Shown here: in pieces, positions 46,476 to 64,000 of the stretch
How the letters are laid out: every line of letters begins with the position of its first letter
Position numbering within the stretch: the stretch's first letter is position 1
Assembly: GCF_007289895.1 (NCBI RefSeq)
Contig: NZ_CP041660.1
Coordinates: forward strand, 3,038,001 to 3,102,000
Direction of reading: 5' to 3'
Source of the DNA: Catenovulum sediminis
GTDB lineage: Bacteria > Pseudomonadota > Gammaproteobacteria > Enterobacterales > Alteromonadaceae
Length of the DNA stretch: 64,000 nucleotides
The notes under the pieces: model-generated
The model's database searches: none
The model's input: the letters and a program-made list of their open reading frames with translations, nothing else
What the model was told of the DNA's origin: nothing
Position numbers and translations under genes: made by a program

Positions 46476-46510
46476 GGCTTTTTGACGCTCACTTTGCTAT
46501 AATACCCGCC

Positions 46511-48115: not shown

Positions 48116-50515
48116 TATGAATATAATCAAAAAGGTTATGAACAAGTTTCACAAATAGCCTCAAGAAAAGACTGGGATGATGGGGTATCTACCAACCAGT
48201 ACAACCTTGCTGGAGAATTGAATGAAGTAGTATATGTTCAAGGCAATAGCAAAAACATAAAGCAGTTTTACAATAATAGTTCGGGCCAAATTTCTTCAAG
48301 CATCCATAAAATTTTATCAGGAACAGATAGTGGAAAGGTTACCTTTGACCATGCCTTTTATGCTAATGGACAATATTTGGGTTCGAAAAACTCTACATTT
48401 ATACCATCGATTCACCCAGAACAAACTCGAAATATCGACAAGTACACAATCTCAGGTGGCGAAACTCTACAAAATATTGCGCAAATGATTTACGGTGATT
48501 CGTCACTTTGGTACCTAATAGCACACGAAAATGGACTATCAAAAGCGCCACTCGATGCTTTTAGTGCATCGGATGCGGGTACGCAACTGAGACTACCGCA
48601 AATTAACACAACAATTAAAAATTCATCAGACAACTTTAAGCCATACAACCCAGCAGAAGTTATAGGAGATGTGTCGCCTAGCCCAGTGCCGCCACCACCA
48701 CCAAAATGTAATGCAATAGCTGGAATAGTTATGGTTGTGGTTGCAGTAGTGGTGACGGTATTTACCGCAGGCGCTGGCGCATTCGCGGTGGGTGGCTTCT
48801 ACGGCGCTATGAGTGCGGGAGCAGGCGTATTAGCTGGTGGGTTTAGCACCGCTGCTTTTGCGGCAGGTGTCGTAGGCAGCCTAGCTTCACAGGCCGTTGG
48901 AAAAATGATGGGCGTAGTAGATGATATTAGCTTAAAAGATGCGTTTGTCAGTGGTGCAACAACTTGGGCTACCGCTGGTTTAGCTAAAGGTTTAGGAGTT
49001 GGCAAAGACGCCGTAAGTAAAAGCGACTGGTTTGTAAAACAGAGTGCAAATGGTAAAGGTATATTTAATGGTTATGGTATTGCAGCCCAAGCCGCGGGTA
49101 GTTACGGCGCAAATTATGCGGCCAATAAACTTGTTGGTAATAACAATGTTAGCTTTAGTTGGAAAGGTATGGCAGCGCAGGTTGCTGGCTCTGTGGCCGG
49201 TCATGGAGTGTCAAATAACGTTGATGTCGGAAATGGGTTGGTTAACGGAGGTATAAGTGGATTCGCCGCAGGCGCTACAACCGCAAAACTTGACCACCAG
49301 TGGAATGGCGGGCAAAATGCTAATTATGCTCAAGTTGCATTAAATGCCTTTGGCAATGCATTGGGGAACTCGATTGTTGAGAGGATGAAATCCCAACCTA
49401 TCTCTCCAAAACTTGCAAATGTTACTGTTCCCGAAGGGGCTACTGCCGCTGAAACTTTGGCTATATATGAAAAAGAAGGCGTCATAGATGACCTTTCGGA
49501 TGATCAATATCATGAGTTGGCAGTTGCAGCGAATAAAGAAGAAGGCATCTCAACAGGTTCAACTGCTAACGGTAATTCTAATCGAGTTGGACGAGTTACT
49601 GTGAACGGTGAAAGCTTCGGCAATGGCGGGTTTGATATAAGCAGAAAAGGACTTAAAGAGCTATATCAAGGCGGCATGCTTGACACCGTTGGCAATGTCG
49701 CTGGCGGTATGTATGACTCTGAAATTAGGGATATCATGGGAAGGGATGATTTTGGTTCATTTAGCCGAGAATTAAACTACGAGTTAGATAATGCATTTGG
49801 GCTAAATGAGTTAGCTGATGCGATGGGGTTTGCATCGGTCAGTAACATTTCAGGTGTATTTTATAAAGCAGCAAAAGCAGGGATAAAGGAAATATCGCCT
49901 GAACTTCAAGCTGTGTACAATCGTTCTAGAGCAACCATTCGGGCTCAAAATTTGAGAAATGGCGGTGCCAGTCCTTTTGTCCGAGATGTAATGCGTGGCG
50001 CTGATGAGCTAATCAAATCTAAAGATTTAAAAACCTTAAATCAATTACAAGCCTATGCAAAAGCTAGGGGGCCTAATGGTGTTATAAGTGAAGGCTTCAC
50101 TAATTTACCAGCGAGTGTTAAGGATTTTGAAATTAAAGGGTTAATTAATCGTTTCGGAGAGAACAAAAGCCAATTTTCAATACCTGATCCTAACGCATAT
50201 TTAGATGCTTTAGATGAAGCTTATGGAACAAAGAGTCCACTAAATACTGCAATGAGAGCTCGTATTTTGGAATATATTGGCGAGCCAGGAGCAAAAGTAT
50301 TCGCACAACACCGAAATGGATTACCTGGATATCATGCTGAAGTAAGGGCTGCGAATGATTTACTGAATAAGCTACCAGCGAATACACCCGCATCTCAAAT
50401 GAATATCGCAACCGCTAAGTTAGTACGAGGTACAGGTAATCATTTCCCAGCTTGTCTTAACTGTGGTGGCATTTTAGATGATTTTAATATCTTAACGAGT
50501 ATTAGGAAGCAGTAA
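48116..50515 (+). CDS. Rhs C-terminal part with LysM-like and deaminase-like toxin domains
   Basis: The frame continues from the upstream Rhs part across the IS66; the first internal ATG is at 48218. In order: last YD repeats, a LysM-like domain (about 48440-48600, YTISGGETLQNIAQMIYG), a Pro run, hydrophobic Gly/Ala-rich segments (about 48710-49300), then AFGNALGNSIVERMKS, where exchangeable tips begin. The C-terminal domain has HAEVRAANDLL (His at 50333) and CLNC (Cys at 50453 and 50462), a zinc deaminase pattern like YwqJ-type toxins. Nucleic acid or nucleotide deamination is inferred. The immunity candidate follows two bases after the stop. Confidence 0.8.
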   Translation, partial: YEYNQKGYEQVSQIASRKDWDDGVSTNQYNLAGELNEVVYVQGNSKNIKQFYNNSSGQISSSIHKILSGTDSGKVTFDHAFYANGQYLGSKNSTFIPSIHPEQTRNIDKYTISGGETLQNIAQMIYGDSSLWYLIAHENGLSKAPLDAFSASDAGTQLRLPQINTTIKNSSDNFKPYNPAEVIGDVSPSPVPPPPPKCNAIAGIVMVVVAVVVTVFTAGAGAFAVGGFYGAMSAGAGVLAGGFSTAAFAAGVVGSLASQAVGKMMGVVDDISLKDAFVSGATTWATAGLAKGLGVGKDAVSKSDWFVKQSANGKGIFNGYGIAAQAAGSYGANYAANKLVGNNNVSFSWKGMAAQVAGSVAGHGVSNNVDVGNGLVNGGISGFAAGATTAKLDHQWNGGQNANYAQVALNAFGNALGNSIVERMKSQPISPKLANVTVPEGATAAETLAIYEKEGVIDDLSDDQYHELAVAANKEEGISTGSTANGNSNRVGRVTVNGESFGNGGFDISRKGLKELYQGGMLDTVGNVAGGMYDSEIRDIMGRDDFGSFSRELNYELDNAFGLNELADAMGFASVSNISGVFYKAAKAGIKEISPELQAVYNRSRATIRAQNLRNGGASPFVRDVMRGADELIKSKDLKTLNQLQAYAKARGPNGVISEGFTNLPASVKDFEIKGLINRFGENKSQFSIPDPNAYLDALDEAYGTKSPLNTAMRARILEYIGEPGAKVFAQHRNGLPGYHAEVRAANDLLNKLPANTPASQMNIATAKLVRGTGNHFPACLNCGGILDDFNILTSIRKQ

Positions 50516-50517
50516 TT

Positions 50518-51396
50518 ATGGTGTTGCGTTTATCAAGTGAGAAATTGATACAGAAAAATCAATTGTTTTATTACCAAGACACTCTTTTTTCAGGCGTTAT
50601 GTATGTAGTTGAAGGTCGTGAAGTTAAGGCGATTAAAGAACTTCAAAATGGGCGAGTTGTTGGGGATTTTAAAGATCCATATTTGCCTGAAAAAATGCCA
50701 GATTTGAGGCTGTTAGATGAAGTATTAAAAGGGGATTGGGATGAACCTATATGCTTACAAGGGAAACCTTTAACCGCAATTGTTTATACCTTTAATGACG
50801 GTTTTTGTGTGAGTCAAACTGAGCTTGATTTTGGTCAGCGCAGCAGTGAAACCGATTTTTTAAAAGATGGTACGCCTTATAGAATTACATATTTTGAAGA
50901 TGAACTTGGTATTCAGCAATTTGAATGGACAGAAAAAGGCAAGCTCATTCACTATAGGGTAACATTATGGGGCAGTCTAGCGGAGCTTTCACTAAAGGGG
51001 GAAGAGGACGGTTCGCTACACTCTATAATCGTAAAAAACAATTTTTTTGAATTGATTAAGCCATATAAAAATTGGTTAATTGATAAAAGCTTTTCGGAAA
51101 AAGAGTATATGTCGACTTTAACCATTTCTAGGAATGTATATCTATCTGGCAACAGTGTAAGTTTAGATATCCTAATTTCTATTTTTGAAAATGGTGGTTT
51201 TAGGGAATGTTCACAAGTCTATGTTTCTCATGATATGAGCATAGACATGGATCTCATAAAGTTTTTGACTCAATTAAATTTAAATAGACTGGACTTCACC
51301 GAGCAAAACTATCCCAATGACACATTACTGCAGTTATACACCTCCAACGCACCAACATGTGAAGTTTATATTGGCAATCAACTTATTGCGTCTTAA
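50518..51396 (+). CDS. Candidate immunity protein, MORN/YwqK-like
   Basis: A 292-residue protein starting two bases after the deaminase-like toxin, with AGGAAG upstream. The N-terminal half has repeats of the MORN/YwqK kind (YYQDTLFSGVMYVVEGREVKAIKELQNGRVVGDF; DGTPYRITYFEDELGIQQFEWTEKGKL). In Bacillus, YwqK is encoded next to the YwqJ deaminase toxin, so position and repeats agree on an immunity role. The C-terminal half is unrecognised. Its 3' end overlaps nfi by 14 bases on the opposite strand. Confidence 0.68.
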   Translation: MVLRLSSEKLIQKNQLFYYQDTLFSGVMYVVEGREVKAIKELQNGRVVGDFKDPYLPEKMPDLRLLDEVLKGDWDEPICLQGKPLTAIVYTFNDGFCVSQTELDFGQRSSETDFLKDGTPYRITYFEDELGIQQFEWTEKGKLIHYRVTLWGSLAELSLKGEEDGSLHSIIVKNNFFELIKPYKNWLIDKSFSEKEYMSTLTISRNVYLSGNSVSLDILISIFENGGFRECSQVYVSHDMSIDMDLIKFLTQLNLNRLDFTEQNYPNDTLLQLYTSNAPTCEVYIGNQLIAS

Positions 51397-52057
51397 GTAC
51401 TGTATTCACTAATTGATCTGCTTGCCGTGTCGTTTCAGGCAAGCGATATTTTGGTGCCAGCTTTAAAACCCACTCACAAGCGCTTTTAAGGGATATTTTG
51501 TGGCCAATTGATACAAATACTGGTTTTACATTGTTTTGTGTTCTCAAAACATTACCAATAACCTCATTGTCATGTAAAAGAGGTGTGTGATCCCCTCTTA
51601 AATTTCCGACTGAGCAATATTCACCTAGTAATTTAGTCTTCCCACAGCCTATTGTTGGTATATTGAAAATAATCCCTAAGTGACAGGCGAGCCCAAATCT
51701 TCTGGGGTGGGCATATCCTTGGCCATCACAGATAATAAGATCTGGTCGCGTCTTGATTGATTCCAAGGCTTTGAGTAAAGGTGGTAATTCACGGAACGAA
51801 AACAATCCTGGAATATACGGAAAAGTCGCCTTTTCTTTGATTGTTACGCTTTCAATTACTTTTAATGTTGCAGACTCGAGTACAACCACCGCAGCTATTA
51901 ACTCATCAGTTTCTTTTGAATAAGCGACATCGACGCCAGCCACTAGTTGAATATTTGAAAATGAGTCGGTACAAATTACTTGATGCGCTAATTTGTATTG
52001 TAACTCTTGAGCTTGAGTTATAGAAATGTCCCAAGCATGCTCAAACTGAATTTTCAC
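51383..52057 (-). CDS. nfi: Deoxyribonuclease V (endonuclease V)
   Basis: A 224-residue DNA repair enzyme that nicks near deoxyinosine. VAGVDVAYSKETDELIAAVVVLE carries the first catalytic Asp, PYIPGLFSFRELPPLL the substrate wedge, and ICDGQGYAHPRRFGLACHLGI the second Asp. GCGKTKLLGEY and SIGHKISLKSACEWVL follow. It sits directly after a deaminase toxin/immunity pair; an enzyme cutting at hypoxanthine, a deamination product of adenine, is a suggestive neighbour, though chance is possible. Confidence 0.93.
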   Translation of the reverse strand: MKIQFEHAWDISITQAQELQYKLAHQVICTDSFSNIQLVAGVDVAYSKETDELIAAVVVLESATLKVIESVTIKEKATFPYIPGLFSFRELPPLLKALESIKTRPDLIICDGQGYAHPRRFGLACHLGIIFNIPTIGCGKTKLLGEYCSVGNLRGDHTPLLHDNEVIGNVLRTQNNVKPVFVSIGHKISLKSACEWVLKLAPKYRLPETTRQADQLVNTVLKTQ

Positions 52058-52176
52058 TAATTATTTACCTGCTGTATCACCGCATCTAGGGCATGTTTAT
52101 CTTTGTTTAATAAATGGGCGGCATAACGACTAAGGTATAATGGTTTCGCCAAAAAACAAAACACCAATGAGCCGTT

Positions 52177-52233
52177 ATGCCTAGAACTATGTTAACAGAT
52201 AAAGCTTGGTTAAAGCTAATTACTGCGCCATAG
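52177..52233 (+). pseudogene. IS5-type transposase N-terminal remnant
   Basis: A short frame reading MPRTMLTDKAWLKL followed by a stop resembles the start of IS5-family transposases. The upstream 60 bp may contain that element's left end. It is cut off at about 52220, where the recombinase fragment begins. Confidence 0.45.
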
Positions 52234-52447
52234 CATGGCCACCTTAATGCTAGAAAACGGCGCAGACATCCGCTTTATCCAAGCCATGTTAGGCCATGCA
52301 GAATTAAGCACCACAGAAATTTATACACAAGTGAGCATAAACAAACTCAAAGAAATCCACCAACAAACCCACCCCGCAAAAGCCAAGGCGCAACAACAAC
52401 GGGCACTGGCAGAATTACTGCAAACGATAGAAGATAACGATGAATAA
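52223..52447 (+). pseudogene. Tyrosine recombinase C-terminal fragment (copy A)
   Basis: The frame reads [39 protein letters not shown]. This is the C-terminal catalytic end of a phage-type integrase: Arg-His, the LGH box and the nucleophile Tyr in EIYTQV. The rest of the gene is missing. It stands immediately upstream of a HigBA-like pair. A near-identical fragment lies at 62194-62472 in front of a different toxin-antitoxin pair. Confidence 0.85.
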
Positions 52448-52488
52448 CAAGTTGAATAAATACGCCATTGGCGTATTATAAAGGCAAT

Positions 52489-52809
52489 ATGGTTATAATA
52501 GAAACGGCCGTATTCACCAAAATCATAAAAACCTTAATGACAGATGATGAATACAAAAACTTACAAGAAGCCCTAATCACTAGGCCAGATAGAGGGGCGA
52601 TAATAAAAAATAGCAACGGGATCAGAAAAATCCGCTGGACACTTGAAGGTAGTGGAAAAAGTGGAGGCGTACGGGTTATCTATTATTGGATGACTGAAGA
52701 TGAGCAGATATACATGCTGTACGCGTACCCAAAAAGTGCACAAGAAAATTTAACCGATGCCCAATTAAAAGTCATGAAACAGATAGTAGAGGGGTGGACA
52801 CATGAATGA
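52489..52809 (+). CDS. higB: RelE/HigB-type toxin
   Basis: A 106-residue protein from the ATG at 52489 (AAGG upstream; a longer frame starts at 52468). The layout is RelE-like: DEYKNLQEALITRPDRGAIIKNSNGIRKIRW, then GKSGGVRVIYYWMTEDEQIYMLYAYPKSAQENLT. HigB toxins cleave mRNA on the ribosome. The toxin-first order and an eight-base overlap with the antitoxin are typical of higBA. Confidence 0.88.
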   Translation: MVIIETAVFTKIIKTLMTDDEYKNLQEALITRPDRGAIIKNSNGIRKIRWTLEGSGKSGGVRVIYYWMTEDEQIYMLYAYPKSAQENLTDAQLKVMKQIVEGWTHE

Positions 52810-53092
52810 TGAAATGTTTAAAGAGCTTGTTCAGAGCATGGAGCAAGCAGGCGACATAATGAAAGGTAAGGCTAAGCCATCACGTGTGACCGTGTTTGCA
52901 GAGCCTGAAGTTAAAGCCATAAGAGCGAAAACAGGTTTAAGCCAAAGTCGCTTTGCAGACATAGTAGGTGTTAGCAAACGAACGCTAGAAAACTGGGAAC
53001 AAGGTCGCAGGCATCCAACAGGGCCAGCAAGAGCATTACTGAAAATACTGGATGCTGATCCACAATATGCACTAAAAGCATTGCATGGATAA
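52802..53092 (+). CDS. higA: XRE-family antitoxin HigA
   Basis: A 96-residue protein with a helix-turn-helix near residues 43-80 (GLSQSRFADIVGVSKRTLENWEQGRRHPTGPARALLKIL). The N-terminal part would contact the toxin. It overlaps the toxin gene by eight bases, so translation is coupled. Such pairs usually repress their own promoter. Confidence 0.9.
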   Translation: MNDEMFKELVQSMEQAGDIMKGKAKPSRVTVFAEPEVKAIRAKTGLSQSRFADIVGVSKRTLENWEQGRRHPTGPARALLKILDADPQYALKALHG

Positions 53093-53107
53093 TTGAAACA
53101 CAAACAT

Positions 53108-53697
53108 TGTCGGCAAGCTCAGAGAAGAAAAAGGCAGCTTGCTCACCTTAAAGCGCAGTCACAGGCCTTGCAACAAAAGCCCCAGTAAACATAAGCACTA
53201 AACCAGCAAGGCCAGCGCCCACGCTTAAAGGCTCACTGCGGTTTTTTATTTACCAAACCCCACATCTCCAGTCGCAAGCTCCTTCCAATGCGCCTTCTGT
53301 TGCTTCGCAGTCCTGCTACGCAACGCCAGGCACCCTTCGCCATCCATGGCTACGGTGTTCACAGGGCAGAAGTAAACTTCTGCTGAGCCCTGTTTACCCC
53401 TAAGCTTAGGGCTTAACCGGCTTCAGGCAATCAAGCCCTTCGGGTTAACATAATTTACATTATGTATAAATTGCCTAAAGCCTACAAAGCTGGTGCAAGC
53501 GCCAACACTTTATAACCGCCACTAAGAAAAAAAGTGCATCTAGGGCAAAAAAGTAAGATACTGCAAAAATGAATCAGATATCCGCTCACAACAACCTGAA
53601 AAAAAAGGGAAAATGCCTCTATGCGTAGGACTGCATGGCGGGGTGCCTGCCTTTGGCAATGCATTGGGGAATAGTATTGTTGAGGGGATGAAATCGG
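53108..53697 (+). repeat. Hairpin-rich noncoding repeat, copy A, leading into Rhs tip
   Basis: This segment is nearly the same as 63063-63598, starting at TGTCGGCAAGCTC and ending inside the tip coding sequence at GGGATGAA. It has no long reading frame until 53613. It contains many hairpins: GCAGAAGT/ACTTCTGC near 53360, CCCTAAGCTTAGGG near 53398, and on the minus strand GCCATGGATGGC and AGCAGGACTGCG with GGA loops. CTCACTGCGGTTTTTTATT (about 53231) resembles a terminator tail for higBA. It ends by providing AAGGGAAA and an ATG for the orphan tip. It is longer than copy B by a stretch around 53320-53450. Confidence 0.8.
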
Positions 53698-54977
53698 ATA
53701 GTAGTAGCAAGGCTGCTGCAAAAATCCAAGAAATCCAAAATAGTAATACTGATGACACAACGAAAAAACTAGCCATTCAAAAAGTTTATGAAGAAGAAGG
53801 TGTATCATTTGGGAATATATCAGATGACACTGGCTCGTCAGGCGGAAGCGGTAAGCGTGGATTTAGTGGTATTCACGGTGCTTACGACAATGATGGGCAC
53901 GTTCACTTCACCCGATATGAAAATGGCAATGCGATGAATGATACATTTAGTGGGCTGCTAGATGGCACATTTAAAAGAGCTAAATTCATTCACAGTAATT
54001 TTCTAAATTGGGCGGGTAATGACTTATCGACAAGTGGTTCAGCGCTAGGATTTAGCTCAATGATGTACAACCATAGAATCGACACCCAGCGACAAGCTTT
54101 AGCAATGAGCTCTGCCGAGCGCCAAGCTATTTATGAAAGTAGAATGCGCAGAATCGATTTGGGAAGGTCCACAAATAGCTGGGATGTAGGTAATACATCC
54201 ACTTGGACTGGTTCAATGAAATACGCGATGACGGGTGCCAATGGTGCACTGTCAGATGATTTTATGACGGCTGTTCATACTGGTTTAGACTACGCAAATA
54301 AAGCTGCAATGGTAATTGGTGGTTTAGGTCTTGGTGTGGGTTTAGGTATTGGACTGGCATCGTTAACGAGAGCAGCGTTACCAACCATAGGACGTGGTTT
54401 TGTCTCAATGGGGCGTGCGAGTCTGCAAACTACTGATGATGTAGCTTTACGTGCTTCTGCTTATGGGCAAAGCGCTTTGCGACAAGTTCGCCCTGTAACT
54501 AACTTAGGGTTTGAAATGGGCGCTCGCTCGGCTGTTCATTTAGGGCGAGTTGAATATACAGGCTTTGCTGGAACTTTAAATTCTACTTTAGGTAGGATCG
54601 CGGGTTCTACAGGATTCCAAGGTGCAATGCAATCGGGTACGATAAATGGGTTTACAAACGGTATCGCAGAATATGCTTTTAAAGGCTCTGAAGCTAATGT
54701 TTTAGGCGCTTTTGTAAACGGATTTATTGGTGGAGGAGTTGGGTATGGGGTCGCACAAAAAGTGATTTCTGGCGCTAGAGGCTTTGTTGGTGGTGCTGTT
54801 GGTAGTGGGCTGGCCGAGTGGTTAGGGCAAGATTCTTTCTCCGCTCAAGATATTCTAATTTCTTCTACGGTTGGAGGGGGTGCCGGATTAGGATTTTCTA
54901 AAGTGTTTAGAAATATGCCTATGGTTTTACCTACTTCAACTCGCTCTTTGTATGATAGCTCGATTGATTCATTTTAA
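53613..54977 (+). CDS. Orphan Rhs toxin tip 1
   Basis: A 454-residue frame starting MPLCVGLHGGVP, then AFGNALGNSIVEGMKS shared with the main Rhs gene. After that the sequence is unrelated to the deaminase tip. It has a Ser/Gly linker, GFSGIHGAYDNDGHVHFTRYENG, helical segments and several Gly/Ala-rich hydrophobic stretches (about 54300-54400 and 54700-54900), so a membrane-active toxin is possible. The toxin type is not recognised. GGGA lies just before the ATG, which would let the tip be made without the Rhs shell. Its putative immunity gene follows. Confidence 0.65.
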   Translation: MPLCVGLHGGVPAFGNALGNSIVEGMKSDSSSKAAAKIQEIQNSNTDDTTKKLAIQKVYEEEGVSFGNISDDTGSSGGSGKRGFSGIHGAYDNDGHVHFTRYENGNAMNDTFSGLLDGTFKRAKFIHSNFLNWAGNDLSTSGSALGFSSMMYNHRIDTQRQALAMSSAERQAIYESRMRRIDLGRSTNSWDVGNTSTWTGSMKYAMTGANGALSDDFMTAVHTGLDYANKAAMVIGGLGLGVGLGIGLASLTRAALPTIGRGFVSMGRASLQTTDDVALRASAYGQSALRQVRPVTNLGFEMGARSAVHLGRVEYTGFAGTLNSTLGRIAGSTGFQGAMQSGTINGFTNGIAEYAFKGSEANVLGAFVNGFIGGGVGYGVAQKVISGARGFVGGAVGSGLAEWLGQDSFSAQDILISSTVGGGAGLGFSKVFRNMPMVLPTSTRSLYDSSIDSF

Positions 54978-55021
54978 GGGAACTATAGCAGTAACCACTT
55001 TAAAGATTGGTACAGCAAATA

Positions 55022-55593
55022 ATGCACAATAATCGTTTAATCAACAAAGTTGAATTTAAATTGGCTCGGATGCCATTGTTAAATGCGATTCTGGATGGCA
55101 GTTGGGTTATTCATTATTACTTGGCCTAATTGTTTATGGCTTATTTAGAGACGGTCTATCAGGGTCAGTGCTAGTTCCGATTGGTATTTTAGTATTTTAT
55201 CTTGCCTTATCATTTAAGCGTTACCTCGAAGGAGGGGCGGTTTGGATAACTCTGAGTGAAGCTGGCATTACTTTACCAACTGGTTACCAGTATCCATGGG
55301 AAGAGGTGCAAAGTGTTCAATTATTGGAATTGAAACCGAGTGTGTATGGAGCTGCCACACCTGGCTTTCAAATTAACTTCACTGACGGTAAAGAATATAA
55401 AATCACTCAGCGAGTTGATGATTATACTGGGTTGTATAAGCAGTTGTTTGAAAGAAATATAGTTGGTACGGCTGCTCCACTGCCTGTTTATGAAGTTGAT
55501 AAACTAGCTGGAGGAGCTGCCGAATTGCTGTCCAAACCAAAGTATATTTTTTATCCGAAAGAAAATAAAAATGTCTCAGTGAAAGTTAAGTAA
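55022..55593 (+). pseudogene. Candidate membrane immunity protein for tip 1, frameshifted
   Basis: An ATG at 55022 begins MHNNRLINKVEFK, then the frame is lost near an A run at 55058-55060. One extra A would join it to the downstream frame IGSDAIVKCDSGWQLGYSLLLGLIVYGLF, two membrane helices (about 55102-55210) and a PH-like soluble domain (VWITLSEAGITLPTGYQYPWEEVQSVQL). As it stands, only a TTG start at 55102 gives the C-terminal 163 residues. Position directly after tip 1 and its membrane character fit an immunity role against a membrane-active toxin. Confidence 0.6.
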
Positions 55594-55595
55594 CG

Positions 55596-56133
55596 CTTTT
55601 GGCAATGCGTTGGGCAATAGCATTGTTGAGGGGATGAAGTCCCAACCTATCTCTCCAAAACTTGCAAATGTTACTGTTCCCGAAGGGCTACTGCCGCTGA
55701 AACTTTGGCAATATATGAGAAAGAAGGTGTCATAGACGACCTTTCAGATGATCAATATCATGAACTGGCAGTTGCAGCGAATAAAGAAGAAGGCATCTCA
55801 ACAGGTTCAACTGCCAACGGCAATTCTAATCGAGTTGGTCTAGTTACAGTAAACGGTGAAAGTTTCGGCAATGGCGGGTTTGATATAAGCAGAAAAGGAC
55901 TTAAAGAGCTATATCAAGGCGGCATGCTTGACACCGTTGGCAATGTCGCTGGCGGTATGTATGACTCTGAAATTAGGGATATCATGGGAAGGGATGATTT
56001 TGGTTCATTTAGCCGAGAGTTAAACTACGAGTTAGATAATGCATTTGGGCTAAATGAGCTTTCAAGCGCAATGGGATTAGCTCAAATTAGCGGTATTTCT
56101 GGGGTGTTTTATCGTGACCTTACGACAACATAG
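55596..56133 (+). pseudogene. Orphan Rhs tip 2, frameshifted and truncated
   Basis: Starting two bases after the preceding gene, this repeats the main Rhs sequence from AFGNALGNSIVE through SQPISPKLANVTVPEG and on to NAFGLNEL with high identity. Then it diverges to SSAMGLAQISGISGVFY and ends in a short tail before the transposon end at 56168. One G is missing from the run at 55685-55687 (four in the main copy), breaking the frame; the remaining ATG-started part begins at 55705. It has no start codon of its own at the junction. Confidence 0.8.
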
Positions 56134-56167
56134 CGCAAATAATTAAAAACCATTTGGCATACTTGAT

Positions 56168-56470: not shown

Positions 56471-57327
56471 TTAAGTCACCTGTTGTTTGATTAGTTGCTC
56501 GTGGCTACGCCAGTGCGGCTGCACGAGCACTTGATTAACATGGGTTATGGTGACCGTTTTTTGAGTCTCTCGTGCAGCTTCTATCAAACTGGCTAAACAC
56601 AAGTTTCGACATAATCTCAAATTCCCCTCACTTGAACGAATAATTAACGCCATCGCATTTTCATCAAAGGTGCTTATGCCCATTTTGGCTTGCTCAAGCT
56701 CACGAATGATAAAGGCTTGTAAGTCATCATCATTGAGCGGTTTTATATGCGCTGAATAGGTGATCCGGCTTTTAATATCTTGATTGGCAGTGAGCGATAA
56801 CGCATGCAACAATTCAGGTTGACCAAACAACACCAAGTTATGATTTTTTGGGGGGCGATTTTTGCTCCTGCAAAATCGACATTCACCACATCCATGTGGC
56901 TCAAACGTTCAAACAACAAACGCAATTTACGCAACGCTGCAATTTCCAATAAATGCGCTTCATCGATTAATATGTATAAAGTTTTATGTGCTTTCACTTG
57001 GCTAAAAGCGGCATTAATCAATTCTTTTTCAATGGTTTTATCGGTGCAATCTAACTTAAATGCATCCGCTAACTGTCGAACAATTTGCCGGTAAGTATGC
57101 ATGGTTCTTGAACAAGACACCACGGTTGACTCACGTGTTGTATCCAGCTTTTCAATATGCTCACGCAATACAGTTTTGCCCACGCCAGGCTGGCCTAACA
57201 CCACAGAAAACCCACCTTGTTTGGCATGAATTTGAATGATGTCAAAAATGCTTTGTTGTTGTTTTAATAATTGATTTGGCTCACGTTTAAATGGCACATC
57301 TCGAATACCCCAAATTGCATTAATCAT
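56471..57327 (-). pseudogene. TniB/ExeA-like AAA+ transposition ATPase, interrupted
   Basis: The N-terminal part reads VVLGQPGVGKTVLREHIE (Walker A) and LYILIDEAHLLEIAALRKLRLLFERL (Walker B). The frame is then lost at an inserted hairpin sequence of about 50 bases (56852-56901) and resumes as PKNHNLVLFGQPELLHALSLTANQDIKSRITYSAHI to the stop at 56471. Such ATPases regulate target choice for DDE transposases. The interrupted join makes it inactive unless the insert is removed. Confidence 0.85.
56852..56901 (-). repeat. ~50-nt double-hairpin insert in ATPase gene (copy 1)
   Basis: On the minus strand: CCACATGGATGTGG, GAATGT, then CGATTTTGC AGGA GCAAAAATCG. Two hairpins have GGA in their loops. 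It falls between LLFERL and PKNHNL of the ATPase, which are adjacent in the family, and it shifts the frame. Confidence 0.75.
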
Positions 57328-57763
57328 GTTTAAACTCCCTTGCCAATTGTGCGTTTAAATACAGGTTTAATGGCATTGCATCGCCCATGCGTTGGTCTTT
57401 GTAATAGACAATAAATCTATCTCTGACAGAGCGGTCATAACGAACTTGCACAGTTTTACCGCGTAAATCGACAGGGCATTCAAATTTATTGCTGTTAATA
57501 GAAAACACATTCACTTTAGACACCTTGCGTTCTTCTTCAATAAAAAACACCTCCTCAGTAAACTCATTGTTGGGTAAATATTGAATGCGCCGGTAATCTA
57601 AATTAAACCTGTCTAGCGGCGTCATTTGGATGGCCGAATGCAACTTAGAATTGTATTCATCTTCCACCCAAGCTTGCGCTAACTGGTTTAACGTCTCAAG
57701 CGATGAAAACTCAGTATGCATGACTAAAAACCTATCCCTAAATCCACGAAAGAAGCGCTCAAT

Positions 57764-57814
57764 GACGTGAAAGGATTCACTAATGCCGTGAGCGCATGGA
57801 TGCGCAGGAACGGC
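57764..57814 (+). repeat. 51-nt double-hairpin insert at catalytic Glu motif (copy 2)
   Basis: On the plus strand: GTGAAAGGATTCAC, TAATGC, CGTGAGCGCATGGATGCGC, AGGAACG. It lies exactly between the codons for GK and IERFF of the transposase and adds 17 residues without a stop. Its orientation is opposite to the other copies relative to the gene. Confidence 0.8.
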
Positions 57815-57962
57815 CTTCCCTTTGGCTGCGCCATCCCTAACGGGTGCGTGAGACAAACGAATATCCAATCGCACACAAGCTTGTAAAATCTCCTTCGCGG
57901 TGTAATTTGCACCGTTATCAAAATACAACCGCTCAGGTTTACCGCGTTTATACAAGGCGGTT

Positions 57963-58010
57963 CTCGCCGATTTTTGCTCCTGCAAAATCGGCATTTCTAA
58001 CATCCATGTC
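57963..58010 (-). repeat. ~48-nt double-hairpin insert (copy 3)
   Basis: On the minus strand: TGACATGGATGTTA, GAAATGC, CGATTTTGC AGGA GCAAAAATCG. It lies between NALT and ALYKRG of the transposase and shifts the frame. Closely related to copies 1 and 5. Confidence 0.75.
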
Positions 58011-58158
58011 AGTCAAAGCATTAATCATATTCTGCGTATCATCACGGTAGAAGAATTCAGCATGGGTGATTAAGCGCGAAGCATCATCAATAAAAGCAAT
58101 GAAAAAGGTTTTTTTATATTTGCCGTCGGGCTGTTTAATCACAGGCCCATGCATGGTG

Positions 58159-58208
58159 GTCGTTCCTGCGCATCCATGCGCCCACGACATTCGTATATCC
58201 TATACATC
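58159..58208 (-). repeat. ~50-nt double-hairpin insert at first catalytic Asp motif (copy 4)
   Basis: On the minus strand: GTATAGGATATAC, GAATGT, CGTGGGCGCATGGATGCGC, AGGAACG. It aligns along its full length with copy 2. It falls between LWQG and TMHGP, next to the first catalytic Asp of this transposase family, and shifts the frame. Confidence 0.78.
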
Positions 58209-58806
58209 TCTCCCTGCCAAAGTTCATTCGCATGCAACATCGCAAATGCCATTCTCAGCTTGTTGGTGGACTCTAAATCCAACAACTCATGCTCACGCAC
58301 AAAACGGTAAAAAGTGGTGGGGGCTAATTGTGCACGGGTAAAATAATTACGCGCCAATAACACGCGATAAATGGCACTTTTAGGCACAACACCCACCTTG
58401 TTGGCTGATAAACTTGGTAAAACTTCACTCAATGCTTCAGCAAGCTCAGCCACTTGCACTTTACGTTGCGCGTTTTTATCCGCTCGGGTCTTCTTCTCAA
58501 GCGTAGTAATGCCATATTTTTTATAACGGTAAACCCAAGTGCTAATGGTGCGCCAAGTAAACTTAAACACATGATTAGATTGGTGGCAGGTAAAGGATTG
58601 TTGGCTAACCTGTTTAATGCGCTCACGCACCGTTGCACCTTGCGCTGCATCAACGGCAGCGAGTACACGTAAACGCACTTCTAACGAAGGAATGGGCATA
58701 AAAAATCTCCTAAAATGAACAAAATTAATAAAGCTTCAGGAGATTAAAACAACGCAAAAAAGCCCTAAATGACAAAATCGGTTGCAGTAAAAAACAAGAT
58801 AAAAAT

Positions 58807-59353
58807 TCAACAAAATCTGCAATTTAAACCAGCTTGAATCGATGAGATATTGGTAAAGCGCTGAGCAAAACTTGCCAAGGTCGACAACAAAACCGCCAAA
58901 CGAGTGGAGCGAAAATTTAGATAACCAGTATCTAACAAGTTCAAATTCAAACGGGCTAACCAACTACGAAATAACCCCAATTGAGCATATAAAGCACTAA
59001 GCCAACGATAGGCTTGCCGGTGTGAAAAATGACAATGTCCAATGGCCGAATAATAAGCTTGTTCAACGGTTGCCCCTTGCAGCAATGACAAAACAAATGC
59101 CCAAATCACACTAAAAGAATAACGACGGTTAGGGATGAAATCAGACAAGTACAAAGCCAAAGTGCGGCCGCAACCTGATTTACCATAACGGTTGGCACAT
59201 AAAATACGTTTGCCAACCTTTACGATAAATAAAACCATGAGACACCCAACTGTTAGAGCAAGCACAATGCTGGCAAGTTTGATTAGAATTTAAGCTATCT
59301 AAAGAACGAGTGAAAATATCTAACTCAAAAAGTGAAGAAAAAAATCGCTGCAT
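58807..59353 (-). pseudogene. Zinc-ribbon transposon helper gene, frameshifted
   Basis: The ATG at 59351-59353 begins MQRFFSSLFELDIF and runs through TCQHCACSNSWVSHGFIYRK, a Cys-x2-Cys zinc-ribbon. The frame then shifts by one base near 59225, and the rest reads VGKRILCANRYGKSGCGRTLALYLSDFIPNRRYSFSVIWAFVLSLLQG. It resembles small helper proteins found beside this kind of transposase; an exact family name is uncertain (DUF6431-like is my best guess). Confidence 0.6.
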
Positions 59354-59390
59354 GAAAATTAACCATTTTAGTAAAAGTTAAAATTCTACA

Positions 59391-60045
59391 CAGAAATTCT
59401 GTTTCCCAAATTACCATAATAATCATGAATTTAAAGTTGATGATAATTTGGTAAAAAATCGCGGGATCGTTCGATAGAAGTGAGGTAAATTACAGTTTAA
59501 CCAGTATGGGATATGATGGTCTTGATAGGCTTATATACACGTATGGCGGCTACGGCAGCGGCTCTAGCGAAATAGAATATGACGGTTTTGGTAATATCAC
59601 TTATTACAAAAGCAAGAATCGAGAGTTAGATTATACATATGATTATGCAAATAATAGACTTTCTAGTGTTTCCGGTGTCAGTGGACGTTATAGCTCTATA
59701 GGCTATGATACACGCGGTAACATTACCAATAATGGCGCTTATTCACTGAACTTCAACGCTGCAAATCAATTAGCTTCTGCGAATGGCAATAGCTATTTGT
59801 ACGATGGACACAACCGTCGAGTAAAGCAGGTAGAAGGCAGTGATACAACCTACTCAATGTATAGCTTTGATGGTCAGTTACTATATCGAACTAAAAGTAC
59901 AACTTCGGGTGATGGTGTAAGTTATGTATATTTAGGCAATAAGCTTATTTCCAAATACGGTGATTTGTCTTTCCAAACGAGTGGTAACTCCCGTCAGCAT
60001 TTTAGGCCTTATGGCCCCCTGTGTCAGGATAGATGTCGCCTCTAA
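59391..60045 (+). pseudogene. Rhs core fragment
   Basis: The clear part from 59506 reads MGYDGLDRLIYTYGG, IEYDGFGNITYYKS, NRLSSVSGVSGRYSSIGYDTRGNI, YLYDGHNRRVKQVEG and ends QHFRPYGP, the end of an Rhs core. The usual segment between YVYLGNKLISKYG and RPYG is partly deleted, and the frame ends shortly after. Upstream, frames resembling EFKVDDNLVKNR are broken by a shift near 59460. It lacks a toxin tip. The transposon D end abuts its left side. Confidence 0.75.
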
Positions 60046-60081
60046 CTTTAATTAGAGGCAAATAAAAATGAGATGATTTTG

Positions 60082-60588
60082 ATGAACTACATATCAGATA
60101 TAGAGCGTAAACTTGGCGATTGGAGAAAACTCCCAGATAACCCATTTCACCAAGAATTGGATTATGCTGTTTTCTCATCTTCGAATGATCAACTTGTCGA
60201 TGAAGTTTTGTATGAAGCTATTTTTGAATTGAATGAGGCGCTAGGTAATGACGAATTAGTGTTTAAAGCATTTATCGACGTTAATGACAAGAAACCTGAT
60301 TTACTCGTTCAAAATCAGAAGAATTGGAGCAGTTTTGATAAGTTTCAAGAGTTAAACCTTGTCTACGAAGGCTTTTATACATCAGGTGACAAATTAAATT
60401 GGCTTGGAATTTATCACCCAGATGACTACTTTGTTGTTGGAGCACCAAAATATGTACTGGAAAAGTTATGTCTAAATGTATACGGTCACTTAGACTGGAA
60501 AAAAGAAATTTCTAATAAATATGAAAGTGGGCAGCTAGAAATATACAGTGAAGATTTTGAAGAGCTGAAAAAATCGCTTCTTCTGTAA
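60082..60588 (+). CDS. Orphan immunity-like protein
   Basis: A 168-residue acidic, soluble protein (an upstream in-frame ATG at 60073 is also possible). It opens MNYISDIERKLGDWRKLPDNPFHQELDYAVFSS and has no signal or membrane segment. I do not recognise the family. Size, acidity and position right after a decapitated Rhs core fit an immunity protein left behind after its toxin was lost. Confidence 0.55.
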   Translation: MNYISDIERKLGDWRKLPDNPFHQELDYAVFSSSNDQLVDEVLYEAIFELNEALGNDELVFKAFIDVNDKKPDLLVQNQKNWSSFDKFQELNLVYEGFYTSGDKLNWLGIYHPDDYFVVGAPKYVLEKLCLNVYGHLDWKKEISNKYESGQLEIYSEDFEELKKSLLL

Positions 60589-60718
60589 TCTTTTTGATTA
60601 TTACGCTCAAGCATTTAATCCAAAGCTCCGCATTCTGAAGTGAAACTAAATAACTGGATTATCCAATTATAAGGACTCACCTCACACGCGGGGCTTTTTA
60701 ATTTAAGTAAGTAAATGT
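60589..60718. other. Spacer with imperfect terminator-like stem
   Basis: AAGCTCCGC (60631-60639) can pair with GCGGGGCTT (about 60689-60697), which is followed by T residues, but the loop of about 50 bases is long for a terminator. Nothing else is visible. Confidence 0.3.
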
Positions 60719-61128
60719 AGCGTACTTTTTTCCCATCATACTTTCGGCCAAATTGTTCATCATACGATCGTTTAAAAAACACACTACTTTCCCGCACTGC
60801 CATCATAACAATTTTCAACTCAGCCAAATTGCTGTCATAGTTTGAACCGAATTGCTATCGAACATATTGTGAATAAAGGCTTTAGCTGAGTTTTTGACAC
60901 AAAAAAAGGGCTTTCGCTCCAGTGTATTTTCTGCTTAAATGCTCGCGTAGCGAGCATTTAAAAGCCCTGTTTTCTCGATCGCTAAATCACAAAACAAGGT
61001 TAAAGTTAAACGCTGATATTAAGTTACCTGTTGCTTTATTAATTGCTCGTGGCTACGCCAGTGCGGCTGCACGAGCACTTGATTAACATGGGTTATGGTG
61101 ACCGTTTTTTGAGTCTCTTGTAGTTTAC
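60719..61128 (-). mobile_element. Truncated transposon end E (same type as D)
   Basis: Starts with TGTAGCGTACTTTTTTCCC as in transposon D and follows it closely for about 410 bp, including the hairpin around GCTCGCGTAGCGAGC and the last 35 or so codons of the ATPase (HVNQVLVQPHWRSHEQLIKQQVT, minus strand). It is cut at GAGTCTCT by the next element's TGTAG. Confidence 0.8.
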
Positions 61129-61426
61129 AAAAATAACGTCATACTTTTTACCAAGCAAAATATCGTAAGATTTGGCCAAAATATGACGTTTTTACCACGC
61201 TAATATCGAACGATTTTTCGGCGTTACCAAATTCATACCGTACAATTTACCAACTCCAATCATACTCTTTCCTAAACTGAATCATACTCTTAACCAATTT
61301 GTTGTCGTATTGGATGGAGCTGGCAATTTTCCAAATAAGGTCAAATTACCACCTCGATAAAACGGAAAACGCCCGAGTATTTAACTCAGGCGTTGGGCGT
61401 ATGATGATTCGGCATATTAGGTTTAA

Positions 61427-61594
61427 CTATTCATTTTTCTGCCCATTTTCTTCGAGTTTTAAACGACTACGATGATGTTGACGTATTTCCTCACCGTAAT
61501 GCGCGATTAGCATTTCGCGGATATCATCCAAGAACTGTATGATCGACTCGGCGTCTTCAGCACTTAGGTATTGAGTTGTTTGCAATATTTTCAT
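61427..61594 (-). CDS. Small ORF coupled to ATPase gene in transposon F
   Basis: A 55-residue frame starting MKILQTTQYLSAEDAESIIQ and ending basic (HHRSRLKLEENGQKNE). Its ATG overlaps the ATPase stop codon as ATGA, and it lies just before the transposon end repeats. It is helical and has no known domain that I recognise. Transposons D and E lack it at this position. Confidence 0.55.
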   Translation of the reverse strand: MKILQTTQYLSAEDAESIIQFLDDIREMLIAHYGEEIRQHHRSRLKLEENGQKNE

Positions 61595-62189
61595 GATGCC
61601 ACCTGTTGCTTAATCAATTCTTCATGGCTGCGCCAATGTGGTTGAATCAGTACATTGTTCACATGGCTGATGGTGACCATCTTTTTGGCCTCGCGACAGG
61701 CTTCAATCAAACTGGCATAACAAAGATTACGGCATAAACGTAAGTTACCATTTGCCGAGCGCAGTATGACCTCAATGGCAGCAGAGTCAAAGGTGTTTAT
61801 GCCCATTGTGGCTTGCTCAAGTTCACGAATGATAAAGGCTTGTAAGTCATCATCATTGAGAGGTTTTATATGCGCTGAATAGGTAATCCGGCTTTTAATA
61901 TCTTGATTGGCAGTGAGCGATAATGCATGCAATAGCTCAGGTTGAGCTAATAAAACTAAGTTATGATTTTTTGGGGGCGATTTTTGCTCCTGCAAAATCG
62001 ACATTTACCACATCCATGTGGCTCAAACGTTCAAACAATAAACGGAGTTTACGTAGTGCGGCTATTTCCAATAAATGCGCTTCATCGATTAATATGTATA
62101 AAGTTTTATGCGCTTTCACTTGGCTAAAAGCGGCATTAATCAATTCTTTTTCAATGGTTTTATCGGTGCAATCTAACTTAAATGCATCA
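61591..62189 (-). pseudogene. TniB/ExeA-like ATPase fragment of transposon F
   Basis: The minus strand carries the ATPase from LINAAFSQVKAHKTLYILIDEAHLLEIAALRKLRLLFERL to the C terminus (IQPHWRSHEELIKQQVAS). The N-terminal part, with Walker A, is missing. An approximately 49-nt hairpin insert at 61975-62023 breaks the frame at the same position as in transposon D, so the insertion is older than the split of the two copies or was shared by conversion. Confidence 0.82.
61975..62023 (-). repeat. ~49-nt double-hairpin insert (copy 5)
   Basis: Same sequence type and same position within the ATPase gene as copy 1, with small differences (GTAAATGTCG in place of GTGAATGTCG, and one base fewer in the C run). 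Confidence 0.75.
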
Positions 62190-62193
62190 GTAA

Positions 62194-62472
62194 TCCCAAT
62201 ATGTTGAAAAATCGGGCATTCCCAAACAAGGCAGCTGCCATTTATTCAGGCATACAATGACCACACTGATGTTAGAAAATGGCGCAGACATTCGCTTTAT
62301 CCAAGCCATGCTAGGTCATGCAGAGCTGAGCACCACAGAGATATATACGCAAGTGAGCATCAAAGCTTTAAAAGATGTTCACACACGCTGCCATCCCGCC
62401 AAACTGAAAAAAGCCTCAGAAGGTGGGGATATGGCTGAATTACAGCAAATGTTAGAGGATGAAGAAGATTAA
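62194..62472 (+). pseudogene. Tyrosine recombinase C-terminal fragment (copy B)
   Basis: The open frame reads [60 protein letters not shown]. It includes the HxxR, LGH and Tyr catalytic positions of phage-type integrases but no N-terminal or core-binding domain. It is longer at its left end than copy A and stands directly before BrnTA. Confidence 0.87.
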
Positions 62473-62535
62473 AAATGACAAATCACACAAAAGCTACTAG
62501 AATTGTAAATACAAATGTATGTACAGGTTGTGACA

Positions 62536-62808
62536 ATGCAGTTTGAATGGGATGAGAATAAAAACGCAATAAACATTCAAAAGCATGGTATCGACTTTAA
62601 TGACGTTTTAGACATGTTTAACCACCCAATGGTTATTCAGCAAGACACACGATTTGCATACTATGAAGACAGATGGATAGGAATAGGTTGGTTGCGCTAT
62701 CAAATAGGTGTTGTGGTATACACAGAACGAGAAGGCGATACCATTAGGATAATCTCAGCTCGATTGGCGACAAAGCAAGAGGTGAAACGCTATGAACAAA
62801 GTCTCTAA
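62536..62808 (+). CDS. brnT: BrnT-family toxin
   Basis: A 90-residue protein from the ATG at 62536 (a longer frame begins at 62515). MQFEWDENKNAINIQKHGIDFNDVLDMF is the BrnT opening; the RelE-like core ends IRIISARLATKQEVKRYE. BrnT toxins cleave RNA. It overlaps the antitoxin gene by 17 bases. Confidence 0.93.
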   Translation: MQFEWDENKNAINIQKHGIDFNDVLDMFNHPMVIQQDTRFAYYEDRWIGIGWLRYQIGVVVYTEREGDTIRIISARLATKQEVKRYEQSL

Positions 62809-63055
62809 AACCGATTGGAAAAGACTGGCAGAAATGTCGGATGAAGATATAGACACAAGTGATATTCCAGAGTTAGGTAATGATTTTTTTAATCACGCAC
62901 AGCTTAGAATGCCTGCAAAAAAATCAGTAACTTTAAGGTTAGATGAAGATGTACTGGAATTTTTAAAATCTGAAGGACAGGGCTATCAAACACGTATCAA
63001 CAAGCTTCTAAGAAACTATATGGACGTGCAATTACACCGAGTACACCATAAATGA
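62792..63055 (+). CDS. brnA: BrnA-family antitoxin
   Basis: An 87-residue protein with the C-terminal ribbon-helix-helix region KKSVTLRLDEDVLEFLKSEGQGYQTRINKLLRNYM, typical of BrnA, which neutralises BrnT and represses the operon. It overlaps brnT, consistent with coupled expression. Confidence 0.93.
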   Translation: MNKVSKTDWKRLAEMSDEDIDTSDIPELGNDFFNHAQLRMPAKKSVTLRLDEDVLEFLKSEGQGYQTRINKLLRNYMDVQLHRVHHK

Positions 63056-63062
63056 CAAAAGC

Positions 63063-63598
63063 TGTCGGCAAGCTCCCAGAAACAAAAAGGCAGCTTGCTC
63101 ACCTTAAAGTGCAGTCACAGGCCTTGCAACAAAAGCCCCAGTAAACATAAGCACTAAACCAGCAAGGCCAGCGCCCACGCTTAAAGGCTCACTGCGGGTT
63201 TTTTATTTACCAAACCCCACATCTCCAGTCGCAAGCTCCTTACAATGCGCCTTTTGTAGCTTCGCAGTCCGCTAGCGCCCTGTAATTTACATAATGTATA
63301 AATTACCTAAAGCCTACAAAGCTGGCGCAAGCGCCAACACTTTATAACCCCCAACCCCAAGGGGCAATAGACGGGTAAATGGCTATGTTGGCCTAGCGGC
63401 CAGCTCAGCCATTTACCCGCCATTAAGAAAAAAAGTGCATCTAGGGCTAAAAAGTAAGATACTGCACAAATGAACCAGATATCTGCTCACAACAACCTGA
63501 AAATAAAAGGGAAAATGCCTCTATCTGTAAGACTGCATGGCGGGGTGATTGCTTTTGGCAATGCGTTGGGGAATAGCATTGTTGAGGGGATGAAGTCC
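63063..63598 (+). repeat. Hairpin-rich noncoding repeat, copy B, leading into Rhs tip
   Basis: Matches 53108-53697 from TGTCGGCAAGCTC through CTCACTGCGG, TTATTTACCAAACCC and the last part AAAAAGTGCATCTAGGGC to the tip junction. It lacks about 130 bases found in copy A, and instead has a 50-base cruciform at 63372-63419. No reading frame is visible before 63515. Confidence 0.82.
63372..63419. other. Cruciform-forming inverted repeat in repeat copy B
   Basis: CGGGTAAATGGCT pairs perfectly with AGCCATTTACCCG (13 bases), and inside it TGGCC, loop TAGC, GGCCA forms a second stem. Copy A has no counterpart. Confidence 0.75.
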
Positions 63599-64000
63599 GC
63601 ACCAAAAACACCAGATCCAAAAATTGATTTATCTAAGTTAGAAAAGTCAGTAAATGACAAATTGAATCAAGCAGTCAACGAAATAGCAGCTAAAACTTCA
63701 GCTGATCTTGATGCAGCAGCCACTCAAAAATTAGAAGAAAAGTCTCAACAGCAACGTGAGGTATCTGATGCAAAAGAAGAAGCTAAGCTAATAGCTAGAC
63801 AAGAGAAGCTGGCTGCTTATCGAGCAAATGCAGTAACTAGAAATGCAGCTTTAGCCGATGATTTGTATAGTAAGCAGTCCTCAACATATGAACATCAAAA
63901 AAATGTAGCATATGAAGAAACTCAGCGAAAATTCCGTGAACTGGGTGGTAGTGATTCTAGCTACATAGAGGTTAATTTAGCGGATGGAGGCGATTTTCCT
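63515..64000 (+). CDS. Orphan Rhs toxin tip 3 (runs off window)
   Basis: The frame starts MPLSVRLHGGVIAFGNALGNSIVEGMKS, with AAGGGA before the ATG, as in tip 1. After the shared junction it is unrelated to the other tips: a long Ala/Glu/Gln/Lys-rich helical region (about 63640-63900) likely to be a coiled coil, then FRELGGSDSSYIEVNLADGGDF. It stays open to base 64000, so the toxin domain and its immunity gene lie beyond the window. Confidence 0.75.
   Translation, partial: MPLSVRLHGGVIAFGNALGNSIVEGMKSAPKTPDPKIDLSKLEKSVNDKLNQAVNEIAAKTSADLDAAATQKLEEKSQQQREVSDAKEEAKLIARQEKLAAYRANAVTRNAALADDLYSKQSSTYEHQKNVAYEETQRKFRELGGSDSSYIEVNLADGGDFP

Follow-up and report, generated by a model that had tools for sequence, protein, structure and literature searches.

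Orphan cdiA-CT/cdiI and rhs-CT modules, in which toxin tips lie behind a full toxin gene, have been described in several studies (Poole 2011, PMC3150448; Koskiniemi 2014, PMC3967940; Ruhe 2016, PMC4927057). In the passages of this literature considered here, tip exchange is ascribed to homologous recombination, to duplication or to an unspecified integration. One of these passages proposes that incoming modules enter cdiA by integration, with displacement of the resident one, and notes integrase genes in the arrays (PMC4927057). XerC/D-like recombinases have also been reported near polyimmunity gene arrays, with a role suggested for them in the relevant passage (Zhang 2012, PMC3482391). How tips are exchanged in CdiA and Rhs proteins, and the start of orphans at the VENN motif, have been debated since at least 2011. 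The present analysis concerns a stretch of 64,000 nucleotides from Catenovulum sediminis (contig NZ_CP041660.1, positions 3,038,001 to 3,102,000; referred to as the window), which carries an rhs gene followed by an array of orphan tips. We consider it highly probable that this array was built by an integrative element that is specialised on polymorphic-toxin genes and swaps their tips at motif codons.

Four tips in the window begin at one common junction (49349, 53652, 55598 and 63554). This had been noted in an earlier reading of the window made from its letters alone (the original prediction) and holds well beyond the window: the junction pattern is found 28 times in the genome (24 exact matches, three with one mismatch and one with two), compared with zero matches for the same pattern read backwards. 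The 28 junctions form five clusters (A to E) spread over both replicons, and their tips fall into 18 groups according to the last 120 amino acids (aa). Most orphans have just 0–16 open codons 5' of the junction. Tips together with immunity genes, assigned from position throughout, lie behind a main gene and lack the toxin core, as is characteristic of orphan rhs/cdi tip arrays; for cluster B, no main gene was found within the stretch examined. A role of the junction as a required hairpin site was considered and rejected, as the arm pairing CAATGC/GCATTG is kept in 20 of the 28 copies and altered in eight.

Intact units are found in clusters B and E. Each consists of a tip with its immunity gene, an XRE gene on the opposite strand, a primase, a recombinase, a toxin–antitoxin pair, a repeat and a 118-bp terminal sequence (RE), which is followed by the next junction and tip. 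One unit from B and one from E, located on different replicons, are identical over 7,761 bp from junction to junction and are followed by differing tips on their right. Cluster B also holds another copy, truncated on its left, which matches the first at 99% over 7,242 bp. RE itself occurs at seven places in the genome, every one of them inside the tip clusters. The same boundaries thus occur with different toxin–antitoxin pairs and different tips across the genome, as the original prediction had anticipated. The primase, a protein of 1013 aa, harbors a CHC2 zinc finger, a DnaG core and a toprim domain according to Pfam, and a P-loop was recognized by eye. From a protein of roughly 1000 aa a Tn3-like transposon had been suspected, which was rejected on the basis of the CHC2/toprim assignment. 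The primase (L012:10121-13159, minus strand) also matches PADLOC DnaG-like models tied to defence reverse transcriptases (106 and 83 bits). The full-length recombinase (348 aa) scores 142 bits with Phage_integrase and 452.6 bits with NF002331 (cut-off 371), and aligns with XerD (1a0p) over 22–315. With the integron integrase model TIGR02249 it reaches 131 bits, under the cut-off of 265, and an integron was rejected on this ground. A viral origin was discarded as well, with a lone weak match (23% identity) among viral contigs. Long terminal inverted repeats were not found: inverted matches between the element's two ends reach 11 bp at most.

The most direct evidence for insertion comes from Escherichia coli. 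A primase query from a Salmonella plasmid matched 59 of 5,426 E. coli genomes, four of them over at least 80% of the query and all in chromosomes, while a primase–recombinase query from an rhs locus likewise matched 59 genomes, 55 of them over at least 80%. In strains C11, GXU-23-25-310 and ZYB39, the element sits 3' of cdiA and immunity genes, in ZYB39 as two tandem copies. At each cdiA joint the right end abuts GTTGAGAATAAC or GTTGAGAATAAT, i.e. the codons for VENN. Both insert ends at all three loci have the core GTTGAGAATAA in common, and sister strains carry the corresponding empty sites. In the first pair, C11 was compared with 2013C-3181 and 1303 and has an insert of 7,782 bp. The left flank is 97% identical over about 7.0 kb up to VENN, starting at a cdiB-type gene beyond which the genes differ; from VENN onward, the right flank is 99.8% identical over 12,076 bp (2013C-3181) and 99.7% over 11,131 bp (1303). 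The second pair, ZYB39 against the second loci of C11 and GXU-23-25-310, differs by two tandem units of 15,564 bp in total, with right flanks at 99.8% over 6,624 bp and 100% over 1,398 bp, respectively. In the third, GXU-23-25-310 has 9,150 bp that are absent from strain 1-62 and comprise one unit and, in addition, a short cassette that has a solo right end, between flanks of 98.6% over 13,946 bp (left) and 99.4% over 3,805 bp (right). In pairs 2 and 3, the flanks match far past cdiBA on both sides. The original prediction had looked to strain pairs differing by a single tip; those found here differ by one or more whole units.

The position of the crossover can be narrowed down in the third pair. 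Here, the base that follows GTTGAGAATAA (AAT or AAC) travels with its tip on either side, and exchange therefore took place within the 11 bp of GTTGAGAATAA. The unit itself is conserved at 97.8–99.99% identity in four pairwise comparisons across the three loci. In the element-free alleles, the displaced tip is carried within cdiA itself. Main cdiA tips of this kind are also annotated elsewhere: the C11 tip matched 38 genomes, and among the 25 records listed for them it is annotated as part of cdiA in 22, while the ZYB39 tip is so annotated in four of five genomes. The GXU-23-25-310 tip matches 94 genomes, 31 of them at a coverage of at least 80%, in mixed contexts. As read from these allele alignments, the E. 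coli cdiA loci reveal the boundaries of the unit, the displaced tips and the tandem arrangement of units.

Homologous recombination alone could in principle generate such arrays, with orphans being displaced 3' ends swapped through junction DNA and the element a mere passenger. Recombination between a main rhs gene and an orphan over 522 bp at 95% identity is reported for Salmonella in the relevant passage of PMC3967940. Moreover, main-gene tips reappear as orphans in C. sediminis: those of clusters D and E are identical to an orphan in B over the last 120 aa, and that of cluster C is 83–84% like orphans in A and E. Two E. coli rhs comparisons point in the same direction. Strain A36 (L201) differs from R12 in its main rhs tip and carries the tip-plus-unit block of R12 further downstream, where it is accompanied by 660 bp of rhs core. 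Between R12 and FDAARGOS_1373 the difference is a single unit, and the two have about 1 kb of right end in common, which fits site-specific and homologous recombination alike. Against this explanation, the common DNA amounts to just 11–15 bp at the E. coli VENN joints and about 44 bp at the C. sediminis junction, the breakpoints coincide at three separate cdiA loci around a near-identical inserted unit, and this unit has its own recombinase and right end. As the sole cause, homologous recombination is hence unlikely. Judging from the A36 and R12 alleles, homologous exchange between copies nonetheless seems to happen too. The original prediction had assigned the junction to precisely such exchange; this survives as a second process, while a role as integration site is better supported.

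A further explanation would be tandem duplication of toxin loci followed by decay, with the element merely marking old duplications. Duplication is one of the models proposed in the part of PMC3150448 considered here, and tandem units occur in ZYB39, Enterobacter JBIWA003, Pseudomonas aeruginosa PA1609 and several more loci. Yet, duplication does not explain how cdiA acquires a new tip and how the resident one, severed at VENN, ends up behind a 7.8-kb unit that the sister allele lacks, which renders this scenario very improbable.

The integrative element favored here may act as follows. A mobile unit of about 7.8 kb would start at its left end with a new tip, beginning at the conserved motif, and the immunity gene. 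The remainder would comprise the XRE gene, the DnaG-like primase with its P-loop, the XerC-like recombinase, often a toxin–antitoxin pair, and a right end some hundreds of bases long. This unit could be excised as a circle in which the right end is joined to its own motif, and the primase may serve to replicate the circle. The recombinase would then presumably join the site on the circle to the motif of a toxin gene, i.e. VENN in cdiA or DPIGL or FGNALGN in rhs. Upon integration, the toxin gene would read into the new tip with its immunity gene next, and the resident tip and immunity gene, cut at the motif, would become an orphan behind the right end. Repeated rounds, loss of element bodies and homologous tip exchange could finally afford arrays like that in the window. 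Solo right ends point to a later loss of element bodies and to the possibility that a tip equipped only with a right end is mobilized in trans.

Possible excised circles have been deposited as small circular plasmids, the two examined here being made up for the most part of the element. In a record from Lonsdalea populi (L206, 11,289 bp), a complete unit is found along with a truncated one, and a toxin core is not annotated. Another from Shigella flexneri (L208, 8,758 bp) holds a primase match over 56% of the query along with recombinase, XRE, SymE and insertion sequence genes. Assembly effects are possible for both, as they are for contigs L135 and L178, the ends of which are identical over 91 and 127 bp, respectively.

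Within the window, the array consists of the following features (ORF, open reading frame).

45153..45734, plus strand: 5' part of the interrupted rhs gene, 193 aa (ORF; YD-type repeats by eye).
45805..48082, plus strand: IS66-type insertion inside rhs with three ORFs of 102, 121 and 523 aa (ORF set).
48218..50515, plus strand: 3' part of the interrupted rhs gene including the tip, 765 aa (ORF).
49349..49380, plus strand: main-gene junction FGNALGNSIVE, proposed attachment site (pattern match; role by analogy with E. coli).
50518..51396, plus strand: ORF after the main tip in immunity-gene position (putative function, by position).
52050..52105, minus strand: possible 3'-end remnant of an XRE gene with the same DAVIQQ ending, left part of unit 1 (by eye; weak).
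52235..52447, plus strand: C-terminal fragment of an XerC-like tyrosine recombinase, 70 aa, unit 1 (ORF, protein family match).
52468..53092, plus strand: HigBA-like toxin–antitoxin pair, unit 1 (antitoxin over the NadS-family cut-off).
53093..53651, plus strand: right-end region of unit 1, in which RE takes up the final 118 bp, 53534-53651 (repeat comparison).
53652..54974, plus strand: orphan tip 1 with its junction, 441 aa, in the frame of the right-end ATG (ORF).
55102..55593, plus strand: ORF of 163 aa after orphan tip 1 in immunity-gene position (ORF; family shared with an ORF of cluster D).
55598..56133, plus strand: orphan tip 2 with its junction (main-tip copy, 95% across 300 bp).
62257..62472, plus strand: C-terminal fragment of an XerC-like tyrosine recombinase, 71 aa, unit 2 (ORF, protein family match).
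62515..63055, plus strand: BrnT/BrnA toxin–antitoxin pair, unit 2 (BrnA by Pfam).
63056..63553, plus strand: right-end region of unit 2 with RE at 63435-63553 (repeat comparison).
63554..64000, plus strand: junction and orphan tip 3, 418 aa in total, continuing past the window (ORF).

Two of the three orphans are preceded by the same order of recombinase fragment, toxin–antitoxin pair and a repeat of about 500 bp. This order was part of the original prediction and is confirmed, with two different pairs. Both recombinase copies of the window are C-terminal fragments only, and the two units are truncated remnants of the larger mobile element that carry other toxin–antitoxin pairs. The idea that tips move as recombinase-driven cassettes thus gains from the fixed boundaries and from a recombinase within the mobile unit, but has to be revised in that the fragments are remnants of a primase-bearing element. 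The repeat of about 500 bp is the right end of this element, whose intact copies lie outside the window. Its last 118 bp or so contain an in-frame ATG ahead of the orphan tip, and the window's repeat blocks D6–D9, D11, D12 and D14 are 75–96% alike. A named RNA in the repeat was considered and rejected, as a search of Rfam with positions 45000–64000 of the window gave zero matches at E 0.1 or better. The toxin of unit 1 is presumably HigB-like, as named in the original prediction, and BrnT in unit 2 is assumed from position; neither has an NCBIfam match.

The main rhs gene, which had been regarded as full-length, is in fact split by the IS66-type insertion; a 3857-aa rhs ORF is located on replicon 2 (cluster D). 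We take the insertion to be IS66-type from its set of ORFs. Related ORF triplets occur twice in cluster C and once in cluster E. A Pfam scan of ten tips gave a single match, marginally over the cut-off, namely that of the main-gene tip in the 765-aa ORF to YwqJ-deaminase. In orphan tip 2, the junction frame stops after 45 aa. By analogy with E. coli, we infer that the window junction is an attachment site. A clean empty site for it was not found in sister genomes: G003 lacks the insertion of G006, yet the ends are unclean, and the mlaA locus elsewhere is too diverged from that of G002.

Several neighbouring features accompany the array. An endonuclease V gene (nfi, 51383-52057, minus strand; NF008629 over cut-off) lies between the ORF that follows the main tip and remnant unit 1 and is an apparent passenger. 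Remnants of a transposon encoding an AAA ATPase and an rve transposase are found at 56471-58699 and 61591-62207, with longer pairs in clusters B and E. Within these AAA+/rve ORFs, a palindrome of about 23 bp, CGATTTTTGCTCCTGCAAAATCG, occurs at 56856-56905, 57968-58017 and 61978-62027, near the points at which the ORFs are split. In addition, an inverted repeat of 44 nt with 86% complementarity has its arms at 57772-57815 and 58158-58201, spaced by 342 nt.

Among the eight genomes of the genus, a near full-length primase match was obtained in C. sediminis only, and the seven others reach 26–36% to the primase part. Across 345 genomes of the family there are four primase matches at 1e-40, i.e. 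C. sediminis, two partial ones (35%) and genome G305, whose primase is 79% identical over 909 residues up to the contig end. Here again the primase lies downstream of an rhs gene whose junction codes for FGNALGN, and the surroundings include an IS66-type insertion and an ORF placed like an immunity gene. Junctions were found in three other genomes of the genus, and a fourth match lies in another family. Those of G002 form an orphan array adjoining mlaA and ending in RE, and those of the other two genomes are short scars. The G002 array (L072:13231-18520) stands directly behind mlaA with no rhs gene within the examined stretch, has RE and a decayed junction last, and holds a BrnT-like start fused to a tip fragment. 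G004 (L074:11068 and 13831) has lone junctions with a few tip codons behind immunity-like ORFs (names by eye), and G006 (L075, near 10870) a lone junction by toxin–antitoxin-like genes between a GST-like gene and recQ (by eye).

On a broader scale, 249 related stretches came up when named genomes were scanned; the 80 best were retained and correspond to 75 loci. A recombinase was found in 69 and an XRE gene in 51 of these 75 primase loci, many contigs being short. A recent duplication private to this genome, which would have undermined the original prediction, is ruled out by such widespread relatives. Seventeen loci extend at least 6 kb upstream of the primase, a cut picked after the table was seen, and 14 of them have an rhs gene there by tblastn, all 14 of which match Pfam RHS_repeat. 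The three remaining loci are L138 and L151, in which another copy of the element lies upstream, and L169, which gave no match. The scan was seeded with two rhs-linked proteins and may favor rhs-linked copies.

These contexts bear on the possibility that an unrelated mobile element entered rhs arrays by chance or owing to the insertion tolerance of toxin loci. IS66-type and AAA+/rve transposon remnants do share these arrays. Also, the rhs link weakens with looser cuts, to 14 of 21 loci (at least 4 kb upstream) and 14 of 28 (at least 3 kb), i.e. an rhs match is lacking in half of the latter, which counts against a specialised element. The 11 loci with 3–6 kb upstream gave zero tblastn rhs matches. 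In six of them one ORF each was scanned, which disclosed an AHH nuclease domain (L116), Tox-REase-7 (L180), a sub-threshold RHS match (L139) and a SurA protein (L132), and nothing in L121 and L178. Chance insertion is opposed by the RHS-repeat genes in 14 of the 17 longer loci, by genes of the hemagglutinin/TpsA/FHA type upstream in Enterobacter (two records), P. aeruginosa and Paraburkholderia and of the CdiA type in E. coli, and by the fact that tip and immunity gene belong to the unit itself. Altogether, it appears extremely improbable. The E. coli cdi and the plasmid contexts come from separate searches; ten of 31 plasmid records were examined, including a Caballeronia record without annotation. 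Among them, a Janthinobacterium plasmid record has an RHS-repeat gene upstream of the element and a Leptospira record a 6.2-kb 'peptidase M23' gene. In a Salmonella record, a small hypothetical ORF is all that is annotated upstream, and a two-partner-secretion locus follows downstream. Copies of the repeat and recombinase without toxin genes had been named in the original prediction as a finding that would speak against it; on this count the link to toxin genes is strong, if incomplete, with L169 having neither an rhs match nor a second copy.

The joints vary among lineages. Where loci are tandem or double, the 3' part of the toxin gene is joined to the right end at a point that differs by lineage; this point is close to the rhs DPIGL codons in L130, L149, L150 and E. 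coli rhs. Fifteen sequences of 115 nt preceding the joint, four from C. sediminis and all from loci of Alpha- and Gammaproteobacteria, were compared by eye, and most display three common motifs that are spaced alike. The fit to these right-end motifs is poor for L130, L188 and the E. coli rhs end, and the L145 joint comes after a terminator-like stretch without a right-end motif before it. A direct-repeat search in 33 loci detected none in nine (L128, L141, L153, L157, L160, L165, L185, L186 and L187). L143, in which an N adjoins the repeat, was not used. In L111 and L137, the direct repeat is located beyond the toxin gene.

Stabilization of the cassettes by addiction, as originally suggested, receives weak support. 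Toxin–antitoxin pairs are present in both window units and annotated in E. coli cdi units, and such pairs or SymE accompany the element in some lineages. Among 126 small ORFs behind the recombinase at 47 loci, matches are few (three ParE, three ParD, two Gp49, one RelE and one HI1420-type); this count is too low, as the choice of ORFs missed some annotated pairs; for L187, for example, frames on the opposite strand were taken and the annotated DinJ/RelE pair was lost. A toxin–antitoxin pair hence seems not to be a constant part of the element, even with the count being an underestimate.

Whether the motifs that mark the start of tips, VENN in CdiA and DPxGL in Rhs, are generally the DNA attachment sites of a widespread class of elements that spreads and replenishes the tips of interbacterial toxins throughout Proteobacteria and possibly in other groups, with the motif codons kept partly by the element, appears to us evenly balanced. 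With a defined element including recombinase, ends and site, the question of how tips are exchanged becomes testable in E. coli. Such an element would predict which arrays grow, why the newest tip tends to be at the front, and how a weapon can be changed with the old antidote retained. Tip exchange of this kind may also confer a benefit.

Taken together, the arrays resemble the known orphan cdi/rhs modules in that, according to the passages considered, displaced tips and immunity genes follow the main gene in tandem with a start at VENN. In contrast, these passages name no element, primase or attachment site, whereas element, ends and alleles are defined here. PMC4927057 has no whole-word occurrence of 'VENN', 'primase' or 'recombinase', and PMC3150448 none of 'integrase' or 'recombinase'. 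The XerC/D-like recombinases by polyimmunity loci differ likewise, as neither an element nor a site is given in the corresponding part of PMC3482391, in which 'primase' does not occur. No description of the element, its ends or its site was found in the open-access literature searched.

Two further systems invite comparison. Some prophages and genomic islands insert into a gene, such as icd or a tRNA gene, and replace its 3' end with one of their own. A tyrosine recombinase, a short common core and a gene that stays open through the left joint are features in common with the element described here; in the latter, however, the 3' end is a new toxin domain that comes with its antidote, and the previous domain is retained as a spare. 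Integron cassettes are arranged in tandem, mostly without a start of their own, and are moved by a tyrosine recombinase of the Xer/IntI kind. The toxin tips likewise form tandem and mostly startless cassettes associated with an Xer/IntI-type tyrosine recombinase, but here the recombinase rides in the moving unit, along with a primase.

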